Assembly (NCBI RefSeq): GCF_028369105.1
Contig: NZ_JAQNDO010000001.1
Coordinates: 5,982,501-6,046,500, forward strand
Reading direction: 5' to 3'
DNA length: 64,000 bases
Source of the DNA: Polyangium mundeleinium
GTDB taxonomy: Bacteria; Myxococcota_A; Polyangia; Polyangiales; Polyangiaceae
Shown: piece after piece, positions 52,539-62,628 of the stretch
Layout: each line of letters starts with the position of its first letter
Numbering within the stretch: the first letter of the stretch is position 1
Program-made: the position numbers and the translations under genes
The notes under the pieces: generated by a model
Told to the model about the DNA's origin: nothing
The model's input: only the letters and a program-made list of their open reading frames with translations
The model's database searches: none

Positions 52539-54266
52539 TCACGGCTGCACGACGGATTGCTCGAACGCAGCCGTGTCGCTCTCGTGTTGCCACTGGATTC
52601 GCGCCTTGTCGTTCGCCCCGAGGAACGCGTCGCACGCGGCGGACAGCGTCGCCCCCGGGACGTCGGCCGCGCATTCGTCGACACGCGTCGTGAAGTCGTC
52701 GCGCGTCTTCCAGAGGCTCTTGCCCTCGATGAACGCGTGCTCGAGGCTCGTCCGGGCGAGCTTCTTGAGCGCGACGTAGCCGAGGCCGTGCTCCTCGACG
52801 GCGCGCACGTACTCGTCGGTGATCTCGATCCGAAGGATGCCCTGGTCGTCGGTCGACGGCGCCACGGGCACGTTCTTCGCCATGTACGCGCTGAGCGGGT
52901 GCTTGTCGCCCGCGATGCCGAGCAGCGTGTCATTGGATGTCAAACAGATCTCCACCATGACGCCCTTCTGGGCCATCGTCGCGAGGAGCTCGTCGGCGCC
53001 CTCGCCGGCCGTCTCACCGAGCACGTCGACCCCGTGGCCGATTCGCTCCGCCCCCGCGATGTCCACGGCATTGCGAATGTGATACGTGAGCTCCGCCTGG
53101 CCTGCCTGCGTCATGGGCAGGACCTCGGGAATGAGCTCGCCCGCGTGCAGGCCGACGTGGACCTTCTTCCGGTTCGGCTCCTGGTCATTGAAGGTGCGGA
53201 GGACGTTCACGGCGAGCATCTCGTCGTTGTAATAGAGGAGGGAGTTCGCATCCTCCTCCGGCGAGACGAGGTTGACGCCCACGAGCTCGGGGACGACCTG
53301 CGCGAGCTCGAATGCGAAGACCCACTGGCCGAAGACGTACGCGCGTGTTCGCGTGCGGGTGCCGGCGACCATGAAACGCACCTCGACGTTGCAGCCGGGA
53401 TCGGCCATGGCGGTGCCGCAGTTGAGCAGCACGTCGGAGCCGGAGAGCGAGTTCGCGATGCTCGCCTTCGCATTGTTGATCGCGGTCTGGAAGCCGGGGT
53501 CCGCGATGATTTCGGTGCGCTTCTGCAAGAGGTAGGGCTCATCCCACCCGTCGCCCGGCATGACCTTGGTCTCGGCGATGTTGCCGACGGTGCCGGAGCC
53601 GAAGCCCTGCATCAGCTCGATGTACACCTGGTTGTTGTGCCCCGCCGTCGAGCGGACCTGCGCGAGCATGTCGTCGCCGCGGGACTCGTTGAGGACGGCG
53701 CCGAATTTGCCGAACGCGTCGAAGAAGTGCTGGTGGCCCTGGAGCAGGGTGCCCATGAAGCCCTCCATGGACCAGGCCATCAGGATGCTGTCGTAGAGGG
53801 CCTGGTCATTGAGCGCGTTCGAGATGGGCACGGCGTCTCCCATGCAAGGCCCGGCGGAGGCGAAGCCCGTGCTCTTGTTGAAGCAGGCCCCGTCGGCCGC
53901 CCCCCACTCGATCATGCTCTCGGGCGTCACGGCGCCCGAGGTGTGGCTATGCAAATCGGCGCCTTTCGGCATGTTTCGCACGAACCCCACGAGGGCCGCA
54001 TGATCGTTGCGAACGGCCTCGAGCTGCTCGGCGACCTTCTCCTCGAGCGAGCCGCCCATTCCGCCGCTGCCGCCCATTCCACCGCCGACGCCGCCCTCGC
54101 CGCCGTTCCCGCCGTTGCCACCGGCGCCGCCCTCGCCGCCGTTTCCGCCAGCGCCGCCTTCCGCGCCGCTGCCGCCGTTGCCGCCCGTGCCCTCGCCGTT
54201 GCCGTCACAGCCGGTCGTGCCAATGAGCAGCGCACAGAGCGCGGACAAAACAATGCTACGTTGCAT
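52539..54266 (-). CDS. Lipoprotein adenosine deaminase-like enzyme (ADGF-like)
   Basis: The protein has 575 aa. Lipobox GTTGC (Cys20) is followed by a roughly 50-residue Gly-rich tether (GGNGGEGGAGG units), then an amidohydrolase domain. Zn and catalytic motifs are KGADLHSHTSG (HxH), VGLHAGE (Glu), RIGHG, CLTSNDTL and STDDQG. These match adenosine deaminase and secreted ADGF proteins. The enzyme probably acts outside the cell on purine nucleosides released from prey or debris. All key residues are present. The C-terminal 60 residues are unassigned. Confidence 0.85.
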   Translation of the reverse strand: MQRSIVLSALCALLIGTTGCDGNGEGTGGNGGSGAEGGAGGNGGEGGAGGNGGNGGEGGVGGGMGGSGGMGGSLEEKVAEQLEAVRNDHAALVGFVRNMPKGADLHSHTSGAVTPESMIEWGAADGACFNKSTGFASAGPCMGDAVPISNALNDQALYDSILMAWSMEGFMGTLLQGHQHFFDAFGKFGAVLNESRGDDMLAQVRSTAGHNNQVYIELMQGFGSGTVGNIAETKVMPGDGWDEPYLLQKRTEIIADPGFQTAINNAKASIANSLSGSDVLLNCGTAMADPGCNVEVRFMVAGTRTRTRAYVFGQWVFAFELAQVVPELVGVNLVSPEEDANSLLYYNDEMLAVNVLRTFNDQEPNRKKVHVGLHAGELIPEVLPMTQAGQAELTYHIRNAVDIAGAERIGHGVDVLGETAGEGADELLATMAQKGVMVEICLTSNDTLLGIAGDKHPLSAYMAKNVPVAPSTDDQGILRIEITDEYVRAVEEHGLGYVALKKLARTSLEHAFIEGKSLWKTRDDFTTRVDECAADVPGATLSAACDAFLGANDKARIQWQHESDTAAFEQSVVQP

Positions 54267-54434
54267 GGTGCAATTCTCCAAGATCAAAATCGCCCGCGTC
54301 GCCGACGGGGCGAAAGACGTCGATGTCGCCCGCGCACGGAGACGTCCGGCACGGGGACGCAGCGTATAGCGTCCTCGGATCTGTATTGCAAGATGTAATC
54401 GACGCGGCGAGGGGGAGGGCGAAGGAAGCCCGCT

Positions 54435-56819
54435 TCACCTGCTGGCGGTGAGCGCGCCCTTGGCCACGAACTGAGAGAATGCGCCGAGGAACTCGTCCAT
54501 CGACACGGTTCCACTCCTGTCGATGTCGCACAGGCGCAAGAACTCGTCGATCTCGATGTCCCGATAGCCCTTCTCCCGGAATTTGGCCATCACCTCGCCC
54601 ACGTCGAGGACGCCATCCCGGTTGGCGTCGATCTCCTCGAAGATCTGGAACATCGAGTCGCGCATCAGCGATTTGAAGATCGCATCGCGGAGCTCCTTCT
54701 CCAGCACGTCGAGCATCGACCCCTCGGGCGTCTCCAGGATCCATGGCTCCATCGTCGTGGACCTGAGCACCGTCACCGTGGTGCCGGGGGACGACGAGAC
54801 CCCGAGGCGTCGCTTGTAGTCTTCGATGAAGACGCTCCCGTAGTGCTCTTCGCTGAAATCCGTCGTGCTCACGATCATTCGATACCCATAGATATCGTCG
54901 CCGGGATCGATGCTCAGGAGATCGTAGATGGCCTTGTTCAACCGATTGGCGAGGTCGAGGTTCGTATTCAGCGACCCGTCCGGGTGCTTGAAGTTCACGG
55001 CGTAGGTCAGGATGTTCTGATCGGGGCCGATCTCGGGCAGGAGCGCCATCGCCTCCGGGTCGGACAGGAGATCCTCGACGCTGCGTTGATCGATGCGATC
55101 ACGAATGAAGCGCCGCTCGGTCTCCACGTCGGCGCCCGAGATCTCCGCGGGCAGCCGCGGGACCGGGACCACGATGAACCGATCCTCCAGGTCCGCCATG
55201 CTGAGCAGCCGCGCGTAGAAGCGCTTGCAATTGAACAGGCTCTTCCGATGAATCTGCCCGTATCCGCTCCGGGTAGGTCGAATGACCTTGTGGCTCAGGT
55301 ACACCGCCGCCACCGCCGCGCCTGGCTTGGAGCCTTCGAGCCCGTAAATCCCCACGGTCGGCTCGGCATCCCCGTGGAGGATGTAGGGCGCCTTGAACGT
55401 CACCATGTCGCGCATGGCCGAATTGCGGTAACAGAGCGCCCCGGCCGGATAAGGGATGTAGCCCGATTTGTGCGGATCCACGGTAATGGAGTCGGCCCGG
55501 CCGAGGGCCGAGAACTGCGAGGTCACGTACCCGCTCATTCCGATTTCGGCCGCCGGTCCGGGGCGCTCGTCTCGGGGGCGCGGCCCCTCGTCGGGACGCA
55601 GGATGGACGCGAAATACCCACCCCATGCCGCGTCCGCGTGGACCGTGAACGACAGGCCCTCTTTCTGGAGCTTGTGGCGCAGCTCGAGAATCCCCTTGAG
55701 CGGATCCACGGCGCTCTCCTCGGTGCTGCCGATGACGGCCACCACCGTGATGACGGGCCGCCGCTGCGCGAGGCAATCCCGCAGCATCTTCTCCAGCGCG
55801 GCCAGGCTCATGCGCGCGTCGCAATCGACGGGGACATCGAGCACGTTGGCCGAGCCCAGGCCGAGCACCGCCGCCGCCTTGGGGAACGAGTAATGCTTGG
55901 TGGCGGGGACGAGGATCACCGGTGAAGCGGGCAGGTCCGCCCCGCAGCGGCGGTAGAGCTCGTGCATCCCCAGGTGCTGGAGCGAGTAGCACGACATGGC
56001 CTTCGTGATCGTATCGCTCGAAATGCCGTACTCCTCCGTGAGGCGCTCGGGCAGCGCGAGGATGTCGTCCACCTTGAGGTTCAAGAGCGACCACGCGTCG
56101 AGCGAGGCGAGGCGCGCGCGCCGGCCGTCGCACGTGCTCACCTCGATGTCGCGCGCCGCGGCGAGGGAGGACTCGGCCTTCAAGGCATCACGGAGCGAGA
56201 GCGGGTAAAACTTCAGATTCCTCGCTGACCAGAGGGCCTCGATGTTGGCCACGGTCCCGCCGGAGGTGATGTGTCCCCAGGGCCTGATGAGCCCTTTCGT
56301 GGCGTCGCCATCCTCCGGGACGGTGTAGCCGAGCATCCGGCACAGATCGTCCCCCACGATCATCTCCAGGAGGGTCGTCGAGGTCGACCCCTCGAACGCG
56401 ACGTTGTTGGGGTTGTAAAGCATCGCCGCGAAATACCCCAGGATGCTGGGGAGCGACGTGTCCCAATTCATGTGTCCCTGATATCGGCCGCTGAAGAAGG
56501 GCACCGATTTCTTGAGGAACGACATGAGCGAGCGCAGGTTGTCCTTCAGCGTGTCCATCGCGTGGAGGTAGGACGGGTGCCGCTTGGCCTGCTCGGTGAT
56601 GTGCGTGGGATCCTGGGGATGGAAGTTCCGCCTCCAGAAGGAATGGTCCCGAATGGCCTCCACGATGAGCTTCTCGAGCTCATCCGCGTTTTCGGCCTTG
56701 GTGCCCAAGAACCAAGCCTCCGGCGACCGGGTCCCTGCGCCCTTGAGGAAGGGTCTCTCGCCAAAGCTGAAATACTGCTTCACGCTCGGCTTGCCTGTCC
56801 GGGCTTTTTCGTCGCTCAT
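54435..56819 (-). CDS. PLP-dependent decarboxylase with C-terminal EF-hand pair
   Basis: The protein has 794 aa. Residues 60-560 form a group II (AADC/GAD-like) decarboxylase: ITSGGTVANIEALW (phosphate and substrate loop), HADAAWGG (Asp396, pyridine N) and SITVDPHKSGYIPYP (PLP Lys451). A further segment to about 690 completes the fold. At 731-742 and 765-776 lie two canonical 12-residue EF-hand loops, DANRDGVLDVGE and DIDRSGTVSMDE. The fusion suggests Ca2+ control of amino-acid decarboxylation. The substrate (aspartate, glutamate or an aromatic acid) is not resolved. The start at 56819 (MSDEKARTGKPSVKQ) has AAAGGGG 8-9 bases upstream. Confidence 0.88.
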   Translation of the reverse strand: MSDEKARTGKPSVKQYFSFGERPFLKGAGTRSPEAWFLGTKAENADELEKLIVEAIRDHSFWRRNFHPQDPTHITEQAKRHPSYLHAMDTLKDNLRSLMSFLKKSVPFFSGRYQGHMNWDTSLPSILGYFAAMLYNPNNVAFEGSTSTTLLEMIVGDDLCRMLGYTVPEDGDATKGLIRPWGHITSGGTVANIEALWSARNLKFYPLSLRDALKAESSLAAARDIEVSTCDGRRARLASLDAWSLLNLKVDDILALPERLTEEYGISSDTITKAMSCYSLQHLGMHELYRRCGADLPASPVILVPATKHYSFPKAAAVLGLGSANVLDVPVDCDARMSLAALEKMLRDCLAQRRPVITVVAVIGSTEESAVDPLKGILELRHKLQKEGLSFTVHADAAWGGYFASILRPDEGPRPRDERPGPAAEIGMSGYVTSQFSALGRADSITVDPHKSGYIPYPAGALCYRNSAMRDMVTFKAPYILHGDAEPTVGIYGLEGSKPGAAVAAVYLSHKVIRPTRSGYGQIHRKSLFNCKRFYARLLSMADLEDRFIVVPVPRLPAEISGADVETERRFIRDRIDQRSVEDLLSDPEAMALLPEIGPDQNILTYAVNFKHPDGSLNTNLDLANRLNKAIYDLLSIDPGDDIYGYRMIVSTTDFSEEHYGSVFIEDYKRRLGVSSSPGTTVTVLRSTTMEPWILETPEGSMLDVLEKELRDAIFKSLMRDSMFQIFEEIDANRDGVLDVGEVMAKFREKGYRDIEIDEFLRLCDIDRSGTVSMDEFLGAFSQFVAKGALTASR

Positions 56820-59943: not shown

Positions 59944-60129
59944 GGGCGGACGTTACCACGCCCTGGAGCTCGGCCGCGCCGGGAATCGAAACCCGCCCCG
60001 TACACCGCGCCGCTGCGCCCGGGGCGCCGGTGGCGCGCGGCATATGTCACCACCGAACATTGAAATGATTTCGTTTCCAGGATCGGGATGTCTCGGGATT
60101 TCATGACCTGCATTGCTATGGTGGTGGTC

Positions 60130-62628
60130 ATGGAATGGCGCACGAATCGTCTCCACCCCGCATCCGTCCTTCGCGTCCTTTCAGGGCCTCTCGTGGTGCT
60201 TTTTGCCGTCGTGACGGCAGCCTGTGGGACTTCGGACGGCGTGATCTCGGGCGGCGCCACGTCGGGCAGTGCGAACGGCGGCAGCGGCGGGACGGGAGGC
60301 AGCGGCGGGACGGGAGGCAGCGGCGGGACGGGCGGCAGCGGCGGGACGGGCGGCAGCGGCGGCGGGACGACGGAAGCGCGGCCCTACACGTTCCGTGCAG
60401 GCGAGAACGGCTTCGAGATCAGCGTGAAGGGCGGTGAATTCGAGCCGTTCTGGCCGATCGGCATCAATTACAGCCATGCGATCCCCGGCACGTCGCCCGG
60501 CGAGTTTCTGGCGACACGCGAGCAAATCGTCGCGTGGATCGAGGCCATCGCGGAGCTCGGCGTCAATTCCGTTCGCATCTACACCGTGCAATCCCCGATC
60601 TTTTACGAGGAGCTCCTCCGGTACAACACCGAGCACCCGGACCACCCGCTCTTCCTCTTGCAAGGGGCCTGGCTCAAGGAGCCCGACGAGGATCCGTCGT
60701 TCTCGGGCATCCCCGATTACTTCGCGACATGGAGCGAGGTCTGGTTCCGCGACGAGATTGAAAAGGTCGTCGACGTCGTCCACGGCAACCGCGAGATCCC
60801 CTACGGCACGCCCGAAAACCCGATGAACTACGGCCGCGCCTTCGGCAGCTTCACGGCCGATGTCTCCCCGTGGCTCCTCGGCTGGCTCGTCGGCCGCGAG
60901 GTCGAGCCGCTCACCATCATGACCACGCACCAAAAATACTACGACGACCACTGCCAGGGGCAGCCGTGCGAGGTCTCCTTCTCGGGCACGTGGTTCTCCA
61001 TCGAGCACGCCACGCCCATGGAGGCGTTCGCGACCGAGCACCTCGATTACCTCACGGTCTACGAGGAAGAGCGGTACGACGAGAAGCACACCATCGGGTT
61101 CTCCAACTGGCCCACGCTCGATCCCATCGATCACGTGGTCGAGTACGAGTACCCCGAGTCCGTCGACGACATGGAGCAGCTCGATCTGCTGAAGATCGAG
61201 GTCGCCCCGAGCTTCGACCCCGGGCTCTTCTTCTCCTACCACGCCTATCCGTATTACCCCGAGTTCGTCCTTTACGAGCCCGCTTACCAGGTCGAGGACG
61301 AGGTCGGGCCGAACTCCTACCTCGGCTACCTCGAAGACCTCCGGAAGGTCTACGCCGGCCGCACCTTGCTCATCGCCGAGATCGGGCACCCTTCGAGCCA
61401 GGGGACCGCGCATTACGCGAAATCGGGGCTGCACCACGGCGATTTCGACGAGGTCGAGCAAGCCAACGCCGTCGAGCGCTCGCTCCGGACGATCCGCCGC
61501 GCCGAGATGGACGGCGCGTTCCTCTTCGAGCTCATCGACGAGTGGTTCAAGCGGGCCTGGGTGGTCGAGCGCGTGGAGCTGCCGGCGGATCGGCGGAGGG
61601 TCTGGTACAACCCGATGAGCCCGGAGCGAAACTTCGGCCTCATCGCCGTGCGCCCCGGCGTGGACGGGATCCACCACGTGCTCGACGGGAAGGGGGACGA
61701 CTTCCTGGTCGAGCCAAACGCCTGGCAAGAAGGAGTGCCTCTCGCCCCGCAGGGGGACGTGCACGATCCTCTGCGCACCCTCCGCGAGGTCAAGGTGGAC
61801 TCCGACGAGGGATTCTTACACGTCCTGATCCGCGTCGAGTCGCTCGACCCGGACGGCAATGGAAAGGTCGACTGGGACCACGTGGACTACGTCGTCGGCC
61901 TCGACACCTTCCTGCCCGAGGCGGGCGACGCGTGCCTCGATCCCGAGTGTTCGCTCCGCACCGAGCGGGGCATCGAGTTCCTCCTCCGTATCGAGTCGGA
62001 GGAGGACGTCGCGCTGTTCGTCGACCCGCCGTACGACCTTTTCGGCATCTGGCACAAGGACCGGAAGGACTGGCAGCTCTATCACACGGCCCCCAACGCG
62101 GACGGTCTGTTCAACCCGGTCCGCACCATCACGAACAACTCGTTCTGGTACCAGGGAGAGATGCTCGCGCCGATCCTCTGGCAGGACACGGGGCGCTTCC
62201 GGACGGGCCCCGAAGCCGTGCGCTCGACGAGCAATTTCTGGTATTCGCTCGCGGACGGGACGATCGAGGTCCGCATTCCCTGGACCTTGCTCAACGTGAC
62301 GGATCCCTCGCAGCGCCTCGTGGTCGACGACTACGTGCCCGGGCCGAAGAGCAAGCAGATCGAGCTCACCACCACGAAGACCCCCGGCTTTGGGCTCATG
62401 GTGGCCGCGCTCGGAGGGACGGCGGAGGCGGAGGGCGTGGTGGTCGACACGCTGCCGCGCGCCAAGAAGGAGAGCACTTCGTGGGTGATCCCCGCGGACG
62501 GGGTGGTCTCGTACACCTGGGCCGAGTGGGAAATCCCGACCTACCACGCCTACCGCAAGCGCTCCTTCGACCTGCTGAAAGAGGCGCTGCCGTCGATCGT
62601 CCCCGCGAGCGCAAAACCTTCGCCGTGA
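60130..62628 (+). CDS. Glycoside-hydrolase-like lipoprotein with Gly/Ser tether
   Basis: The protein has 832 aa. Lipobox VTAAC (near residue 32) is followed by a roughly 35-residue Gly/Ser/Thr tether and a TIM-barrel-like domain: PIGINYSHA, SVRIYTVQSP, GWLVGREVEP (possible acid/base Glu) and LLIAEIGHPSSQ (possible nucleophile Glu). The second half (about 510-832) is a beta-rich region with DPDGNGKVDWDHVDYVV and a DOMON/carbohydrate-binding-like appearance. The family cannot be named with certainty; a GH2/GH5-like clan-A fold is the best guess. It is surface-anchored. ATGs at 60118 and 60088 are alternative starts. Confidence 0.72.
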   Translation: MEWRTNRLHPASVLRVLSGPLVVLFAVVTAACGTSDGVISGGATSGSANGGSGGTGGSGGTGGSGGTGGSGGTGGSGGGTTEARPYTFRAGENGFEISVKGGEFEPFWPIGINYSHAIPGTSPGEFLATREQIVAWIEAIAELGVNSVRIYTVQSPIFYEELLRYNTEHPDHPLFLLQGAWLKEPDEDPSFSGIPDYFATWSEVWFRDEIEKVVDVVHGNREIPYGTPENPMNYGRAFGSFTADVSPWLLGWLVGREVEPLTIMTTHQKYYDDHCQGQPCEVSFSGTWFSIEHATPMEAFATEHLDYLTVYEEERYDEKHTIGFSNWPTLDPIDHVVEYEYPESVDDMEQLDLLKIEVAPSFDPGLFFSYHAYPYYPEFVLYEPAYQVEDEVGPNSYLGYLEDLRKVYAGRTLLIAEIGHPSSQGTAHYAKSGLHHGDFDEVEQANAVERSLRTIRRAEMDGAFLFELIDEWFKRAWVVERVELPADRRRVWYNPMSPERNFGLIAVRPGVDGIHHVLDGKGDDFLVEPNAWQEGVPLAPQGDVHDPLRTLREVKVDSDEGFLHVLIRVESLDPDGNGKVDWDHVDYVVGLDTFLPEAGDACLDPECSLRTERGIEFLLRIESEEDVALFVDPPYDLFGIWHKDRKDWQLYHTAPNADGLFNPVRTITNNSFWYQGEMLAPILWQDTGRFRTGPEAVRSTSNFWYSLADGTIEVRIPWTLLNVTDPSQRLVVDDYVPGPKSKQIELTTTKTPGFGLMVAALGGTAEAEGVVVDTLPRAKKESTSWVIPADGVVSYTWAEWEIPTYHAYRKRSFDLLKEALPSIVPASAKPSP
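60282..60372 (+). repeat. 15-bp in-frame repeat encoding the Gly/Ser tether
   Basis: About five copies of a unit GGCGGCAGCGGCGGGACG/GGAGGCAGCGGCGGGACG-like (core GGCAGCGGCGGGACG, 15 bp) encode GGSGGT repeats just after the lipobox of the glycosidase-like gene. Near identity between copies points to recent expansion. The unit is a multiple of three. Confidence 0.82.

Follow-up and report, generated by a model that had tools for sequence, protein, structure and literature searches.

Intracellular Ca2+ as a bacterial second messenger is still argued, and to our knowledge the direct enzyme targets of Ca2+ in bacteria are few. Can a bacterial decarboxylase carry its own Ca2+ sensor, and what would such a sensor do? 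The question is raised by a gene in a stretch of 64,000 nucleotides from Polyangium mundeleinium (contig NZ_JAQNDO010000001.1, positions 5,982,501 to 6,046,500; the whole stretch is called the window), which encodes a pyridoxal 5'-phosphate (PLP) decarboxylase ending in an EF-hand pair. The preferred reading, held at a probability of roughly 0.55, is that the protein decarboxylates aromatic L-amino acids in the cytosol as a homodimer-type enzyme of the kind of PcncAAAD, from the fungus Psilocybe cubensis, and that Ca2+ bound to its own EF pair either stimulates it or keeps the active form together. With decarboxylase and EF-hand pair in one chain, a combination retained in two phyla (myxobacteria and cyanobacteria), the protein is a simple and directly testable Ca2+ target, and Ca2+ is predicted to be able to tune a bacterial metabolic enzyme directly.

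A decarboxylase and an EF-hand pair in one chain

The minus strand of the gene translates as one uninterrupted frame of 794 residues with an ATG start; the plus-strand reading of the same interval was rejected, as two stops interrupt it. In Pfam the protein scores above the cut-off for PF00282 (69.6 bits, cut-off 27), PF21391 tyr_de_CO2_C (43 bits, cut-off 27.2) and EF-hand_7, PF13499 (37.7 bits, cut-off 30). The host genome of 13.25 Mb holds a single full-length copy, a second match spanning residues 306-480 only, and among its eight PF13499 matches that of the decarboxylase is the strongest. An earlier note on this DNA, which had proposed a PLP decarboxylase and an EF-hand pair in one bacterial chain, was right on this point: the frame is single, all the Pfam domains exceed their cut-offs and the fusion recurs in 22 other loci.

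The two textbook EF-hand loops claimed in the note lie exactly at residues 731-742 and 765-776, and both fit a PROSITE-like EF-hand pattern. Both are canonical in Polyangium, whereas many relatives have a less strict loop 2: of the 23 rows with an EF tail, 14 match with both loops, eight with loop 1 only, and one (L011) with neither. When the protein was shuffled 20000 times, paired EF loops 25-45 residues apart never arose, and a six-frame translation of the window (108823 residues, in segments of at least 50 residues) contains two single pattern matches and one pair, which is that of the decarboxylase. Chance or a frame artefact was rejected on the grounds of these shuffles and of the recurrence of the fusion in other loci.

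In the AlphaFold2 (AF2) model the tail forms a helix-loop-helix pair with a short EF beta bridge (E737-739 and E771-773). Because decarboxylases took up the VIA-align and Foldseek lists of the whole model, the EF tail was modelled and compared separately. Folded in this way the tail reaches a predicted local distance difference test score (pLDDT) of 78 and a predicted template modelling score (pTM) of 0.56, and its closest folds are Ca2+-loaded troponin C, the regulatory apparatus of calcium-dependent protein kinase (CDPK) and the Ca2+-bound SCaMC domain, with modest E values of about 1e-3. Moreover, a tail profile searched against the PDB finds calmodulin, troponin C, CDPK and flagellar EF-hand proteins, and EF-hand_7 matches all 22 tails scanned at E 0.01 or better. 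With an EF-hand_7 score above the cut-off, two 12-residue loops and a helix-loop-helix fold, the tail belongs to the EF-hand (calmodulin superfamily) pairs.

The Ca2+-ligand pattern is conserved. Among 22 EF rows, loop 1 has D1 in 22, N3 in 21, D5 in 20, G6 in 20 and E12 in 22, while loop 2 has D1 in 20 and E12 in 22, with position 5 occupied by D (16), S (5) or N (1). Ligand columns carry 3.61 bits vs 2.85 for the rest of the EF domain (permutation p 0.013).

The relatives were taken from 203 pattern-matching genome stretches, of which 195 encode a relative; the best 80 were kept and make, with the own copy, 81 rows (L001, L003-L082), a sample biased both by keeping the best 80 of 195 and by one search pattern that lies inside the EF region. 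An EF tail is present in 23 of these 81 rows, the own copy and the 22 other loci, which come from the myxobacteria Polyangium, Sorangium and Nannocystis and the cyanobacteria Scytonema, Okeania, Oscillatoria, Desmonostoc, Sphaerospermopsis, Waterburya and one uncultured form. The gene is found in all six genomes of the genus, own genome included, and the nearest named relatives are from Polyangium, at 94-97% identity. The tail profile matches nine of 183 genomes of the own order (six of the own genus and three from a second genus, two of them coinciding in position with Sorangium loci) and six of 243 genomes of the order of Scytonema. All 15 matches lie in open frames of 795-944 residues, with one genome (G713) flagged for an in-frame stop, and are consistent with fusions. 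The core runs into the tail in all seven further loci inspected (L106, L108-L111, L120 and the genus locus L105); the tails of L106, L108, L109 and L110 are identical to those of the already counted named loci L011, L015, L043 and L023. In a spread phylum sample, any match at E 1e-60 was obtained in 11 of 282 genomes, full-length only in the own genome, and in a cyanobacterial phylum sample a match at E 1e-100 was obtained in four of 292, with the tail covered only in Scytonema. The fusion is patchy, yet present in every Polyangium genome searched.

The length of chain after residue 715 is bimodal, with 73-82 residues in 22 EF rows and 3-26 in nearly all others. A search of the 58 EF-less rows for an appended domain in other bacteria found a long tail only in L046, a distant relative from candidate division WOR-3 that has 149 C-terminal residues past the core. 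In a tree of all 81 rows the 23 EF rows form one clade within EF-less relatives (support 97), whereas a core-only tree (82 rows including two PDB sequences, with L037 and L002 dropped) needs two changes for the EF rows. A single origin was not upheld across the two trees; one gain with later loss and two gains are both possible.

The core, its likely substrate and a fungal precedent

The earlier note had called the catalytic K451 and D396 intact, and both residues stand at these positions, in the motifs DPHKSGY and HADAAWGG. The PF00282 match, the Schiff-base lysine, the ring aspartate and a stacking histidine (H309) together identify a group II PLP-dependent decarboxylase, and H309, D396, K451 and Y457 are identical in 22 of 22 EF rows, in PDB entry 6ebn and in the tyrosine decarboxylase of Lactobacillus brevis (LbTDC). 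The best PDB match by sequence is 6ebn, which is PcncAAAD (E 5.7e-170, query residues 34-721), with 43% identity over 701 columns. By fold, too, 6ebn is the nearest, the VIA-align Z being 53.9 for 6ebn (682 residues), about 42 for Lactobacillus and Enterococcus tyrosine decarboxylases and about 32 and below for glutamate decarboxylase (GAD), cysteine sulfinic acid decarboxylase (CSAD) and others. In the tree, 6ebn falls on the EF rows' half, on a long branch, and LbTDC on the other half (support 100). The core is of the PcncAAAD type in that homology extends along its whole length and 6ebn is nearer than other solved PLP decarboxylases; the cut-off of the tyrosine decarboxylase model TIGR03811 was not reached (367.1 of 905.3 bits).

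According to excerpts of PMC4904194, S586 and A295 of LbTDC are substrate-side positions, and Y398 and S586 matter for tyrosine binding. In the alignment Y398, S586 and A295 correspond to Y457, T688 and I363, respectively, of the window protein, and Y457 and T688 are compatible with an aromatic pocket. A catalytic-loop tyrosine, the counterpart of which is Y479 (Table 1), tells decarboxylases from aldehyde synthases in plant enzymes, as stated in excerpts of PMC11308512. The best guess for the substrate is an aromatic amino acid, since the nearest solved relative, the fold, the tree and the pocket residues all point to aromatic enzymes.

PcncAAAD is a noncanonical aromatic amino acid decarboxylase, and the account of it given here follows excerpts of a single report (PMC13062060). 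It is activated by Ca2+ through a C-terminal double beta-barrel of 296 residues (718-1013, boundary 717/718) with sites A and B. Its kcat is 0.51 per s in Ca2+ and 0.074 in Na+, a 6.9-fold difference that falls to 1.9-fold in a site A mutant; most of the activation is gone in site A mutants. Removal of the C-terminal domain abolishes activity, and coexpression restores part of it (PMC13062060). Site A lies between the core lid loop (Gln629 backbone, Ser632 and Glu638) and Asp971 of the C-terminal domain, and Ca2+ at this site steadies a lid-rim cap above the active site (PMC13062060).

Both core elements of this cap have equivalents in the window protein (Table 1), and these are also conserved in EF-less relatives. 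S636 and D642, kept in 22 of 22 EF rows, stand at the positions of the site A ligands Ser632 and Glu638. VIA-align pairs residues 31-728 of the model with residues 21-718 of the 6ebn chain. Because the alignment ends there and the fungal domain starts at 718, the EF pair of the model begins at the seam where the fungal barrel domain begins. The double beta-barrel itself is absent from the window protein, the 79-residue tail after residue 715 being the EF-hand pair, and for this reason the protein is not classed as PcncAAAD itself.

Table 1. Features of the decarboxylase gene and its product, in window coordinates
Feature	Position	Strand	Basis
Gene for the 794-residue PLP decarboxylase with C-terminal EF-hand pair, stop included	54435..56819	(-)	Open reading frame (ORF), loop pattern, Pfam; full-length relatives L003-L021, L023, L043, L037
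Decarboxylase core, residues 1-716; matches 6ebn residues 24-716 from query residue 34	54672..56819	(-)	Pfam, sequence and fold comparison
Residues 136-145, NPNNVAFEGS, equivalent of the PcncAAAD 'rim helix' stretch (NPNNVAFEAS)	56385..56414	(-)	Alignment; excerpts of PMC13062060
D396, PLP-ring aspartate, in HADAAWGG	55632..55634	(-)	22/22 EF rows
K451, PLP Schiff-base lysine, in DPHKSGY	55467..55469	(-)	22/22 EF rows
Y479, equivalent of PcncAAAD catalytic-loop Tyr471	55383..55385	(-)	21/22 EF rows
Residues 635-650, LSIDPGDDIYGYRMIV, equivalent of the PcncAAAD lid loop	54870..54917	(-)	Alignment; excerpts of PMC13062060
Single predicted helix, residues 702-730, core into EF hand 1	54630..54716	(-)	AF2 model
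C-terminal EF-hand domain, residues 719-794	54438..54665	(-)	Pfam, tail model, tail profile, fold matches
EF-hand loop 1, residues 731-742, DANRDGVLDVGE	54594..54629	(-)	PROSITE-like pattern
EF-hand loop 2, residues 765-776, DIDRSGTVSMDE	54492..54527	(-)	PROSITE-like pattern

Proposed Ca2+ control and its rivals

By analogy with the fungal enzyme, a Ca2+ switch in the window protein is plausible. Ca2+ would fill loop 1, and in Polyangium also loop 2, and so bring order to the EF pair. This pair would be rigidly coupled to the core, because the last core helix (residues 702-730) doubles as the helix that enters EF hand 1, and it could serve as a natural lever between the two. Once ordered, the pair may brace the lid loop and the rim helix above the active site, in the manner of the unrelated PcncAAAD domain; the retained rim and lid elements, the seam common with the fungal domain and the continuity of helix 702-730 all suggest such bracing. 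The outcome would be a faster conversion of tyrosine, phenylalanine, tryptophan or similar substrates into amines. A cytosolic location is assumed, since no signal peptide was recognised by eye in the first residues.

Several observations weigh against Ca2+ control of this kind. The AF2 model of the whole protein is that of a monomer without metal, and its confidence in the EF part is modest, with a pLDDT of about 64-88 over residues 711-790. Loop 2 departs from the canonical pattern in nine of the 23 EF rows, including L011, as if Ca2+ affinity had been relaxed in some lineages, and because of this incomplete pattern some cyanobacterial and Nannocystis copies may bind one Ca2+ only, or bind it weakly. 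The lid-loop acid was tested for a link with the EF domain, and none was found: it is kept in all seven of the nearest EF-less relatives, and a loose count that accepts an acid anywhere in the lid separates nothing, reaching 36 of 38 even in the far half of the tree. Furthermore, 57 of the 58 EF-less rows end within 26 residues past residue 715, so that most members of the family do without an added domain. Finally, no conserved neighbour genes hinting at a pathway were seen among the EF loci examined.

Cytosolic Ca2+ in bacteria is low, which favours a sensor unless affinity is high, and close tail-less relatives keep the core elements and presumably fold without the tail. Both points tell against the idea that the EF pair is a constitutive structural module, always filled with metal, which stabilises the dimer or the C-terminal helix and switches nothing. 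This idea is unlikely, yet it is the best of the alternatives: one continuous helix joins the pair to the core in the AF2 model, ligand positions are kept while the rest of the EF domain drifts, and in the excerpts of PMC13062060 the Ca2+ of PcncAAAD is read as structural stabilisation.

It is improbable that the pair acts instead as a docking module, one that would place the enzyme by Ca2+-dependent contact with a membrane or another protein and would hardly affect catalysis. Calmodulin- and CDPK-type pairs, its nearest folds, do act by exposing a hydrophobic surface to partners, but no conserved neighbour gene offers itself as a partner, and among the loci of 23 relatives only that of Polyangium fumosum shares proteins with the window.

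The earlier note had suggested Ca2+-switched production of an amine or of gamma-aminobutyric acid (GABA) or beta-alanine. The last two, which would come from glutamate or aspartate, are very improbable products. The PLP fold superfamily is common to the enzymes that make them, and GAD65/67 are among the fold matches (Z about 31); nevertheless, the protein did not reach the NCBIfam cut-offs for glutamate decarboxylase (TIGR01788, 41.8 of 380.4 bits) or for the aspartate 1-decarboxylase PanP (TIGR03799, 134.8 of 606.1 bits), sequence, fold and tree all place it closest to aromatic enzymes, and Y457 and T688 fit an aromatic pocket. Glutamate and aspartate were rejected as substrates on the failure of these models and on a fold nearer to aromatic enzymes, 6ebn above all. 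That the loops are relics, in a tail with neither Ca2+ binding nor a role, is scarcely credible: loop 2 is off pattern in the nine rows and one row has neither loop canonical, but the tail keeps its length in all 22 counted EF rows, E12 of both loops and D1 of loop 1 are invariant there, and both loops are canonical in five of five Polyangium rows.

If Ca2+ does control the enzyme through its own EF pair, a wider proposal follows, which is tentative and on balance doubtful. Fungi and bacteria may each have added an unrelated Ca2+-binding domain at the same core seam, both bracing the same lid, such that Ca2+ gating of aromatic amine production would be a trait convergent between the two; in Polyangium, Sorangium, Nannocystis and some cyanobacteria, a rise in intracellular Ca2+ would then switch the enzyme directly, with no need of a separate calmodulin. 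PcncAAAD provides a mechanistic model and mutants that can be imitated, and enzyme engineering would also profit from a decarboxylase gated by Ca2+, if confirmed. In addition, Scytonema sp. NIES-4073 (G282) holds both versions, L008 with the EF pair and L022 without it, so that Ca2+ dependence can be compared inside one organism.

Gene surroundings and known systems

The decarboxylase gene stands alone. Downstream on the same strand (52539-54287) is an adenosine-deaminase-like gene (PF00962), the product of which has a lipoprotein-like start and a long Gly-rich linker, and upstream is a divergent gene for a WYL-type regulator. Among the 23 relatives' loci searched, window neighbours are common only to Polyangium fumosum (L003). 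Crude ORF clustering of 37 stretches, with an ORF picking that confuses strands in GC-rich DNA, showed no gene that recurs beside the EF rows as a group. Operon or pathway context was dropped as evidence on both counts. Elsewhere in the window, the plus strand at 60088-62628 encodes an 846-residue protein that looks secreted, matches nothing in Pfam and has a Gly-rich repeat linker close to its N-terminus. After each of two cyanobacterial EF copies comes a fusion of a globin with pentapeptide repeats (L008:8920-10734 and L011:9424-10902). The nearest EF-less relatives, L022, L025, L026, L027, L041, L079 and L121 (Rhizobium plasmid pSK02), adjoin a conserved protein of about 318 residues with no Pfam or NCBIfam match, and most of these loci also carry metallopeptidase genes, namely a HAD-M28 fusion and an M36 or M4 peptidase, together with an emfourin-type inhibitor on pSK02. 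These EF-less loci are possibly a peptide-to-amine gene cluster present in several phyla.

EF-hand proteins in bacteria are already known, as is one Ca2+-activated aromatic decarboxylase, the fungal enzyme (excerpts of PMC13062060). A search of the open-licence literature, which leaves out most subscription papers, found no such EF-hand decarboxylase described, and a literature search for myxobacterial tyramine gave no relevant match. Public domain databases may well show this combination of domains.

Plant glutamate decarboxylase, the comparison chosen in the earlier note, is a PLP decarboxylase under Ca2+ control in principle; it differs in belonging to another decarboxylase family, as the TIGR01788 score indicates, and in having calmodulin, a separate protein, as its sensor. 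PcncAAAD is a better precedent, being Ca2+-activated through a built-in domain. The note's statement that the sensor is built in is thus correct as anatomy, the EF pair being in the same chain, and is not without precedent in the enzyme class, PcncAAAD having its own Ca2+-binding domain of another fold. The window protein, which is known from sequence and model, resembles PcncAAAD, for which alone Ca2+ activation has been measured, in its core, its catalytic Lys/Asp/His/Tyr set, its rim NPNNVAFE, its lid Ser and acid, and a C-terminal domain of Ca2+-binding type appended at a common seam; it differs in that the appendage is an EF-hand pair of 76 residues and not a 296-residue double beta-barrel. 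The tyrosine decarboxylases of Lactobacillus brevis and Enterococcus faecalis (5hsi, 7cwx) share the fold and active-site residues, with H241, Y398 and the catalytic Lys of LbTDC having identical counterparts, but are 31-37% identical in aligned pieces, shorter, devoid of a Ca2+ domain and have Ser for the lid-loop acid. EF-less bacterial relatives, for instance Scytonema L022, Crenothrix L041 and that of Rhizobium plasmid pSK02, have cores 60-66% identical, and L022 and L041 keep the lid acid; by contrast, L022 and L041 end 14 residues past residue 715 with no EF pair, and all three lie inside a metallopeptidase gene cluster. The EF pairs of calmodulin, troponin C and CDPK are alike in sequence profile and fold, with low identity (17-32% in the listed fold matches), whereas the pair in the window protein is joined by a continuous helix to a metabolic enzyme.

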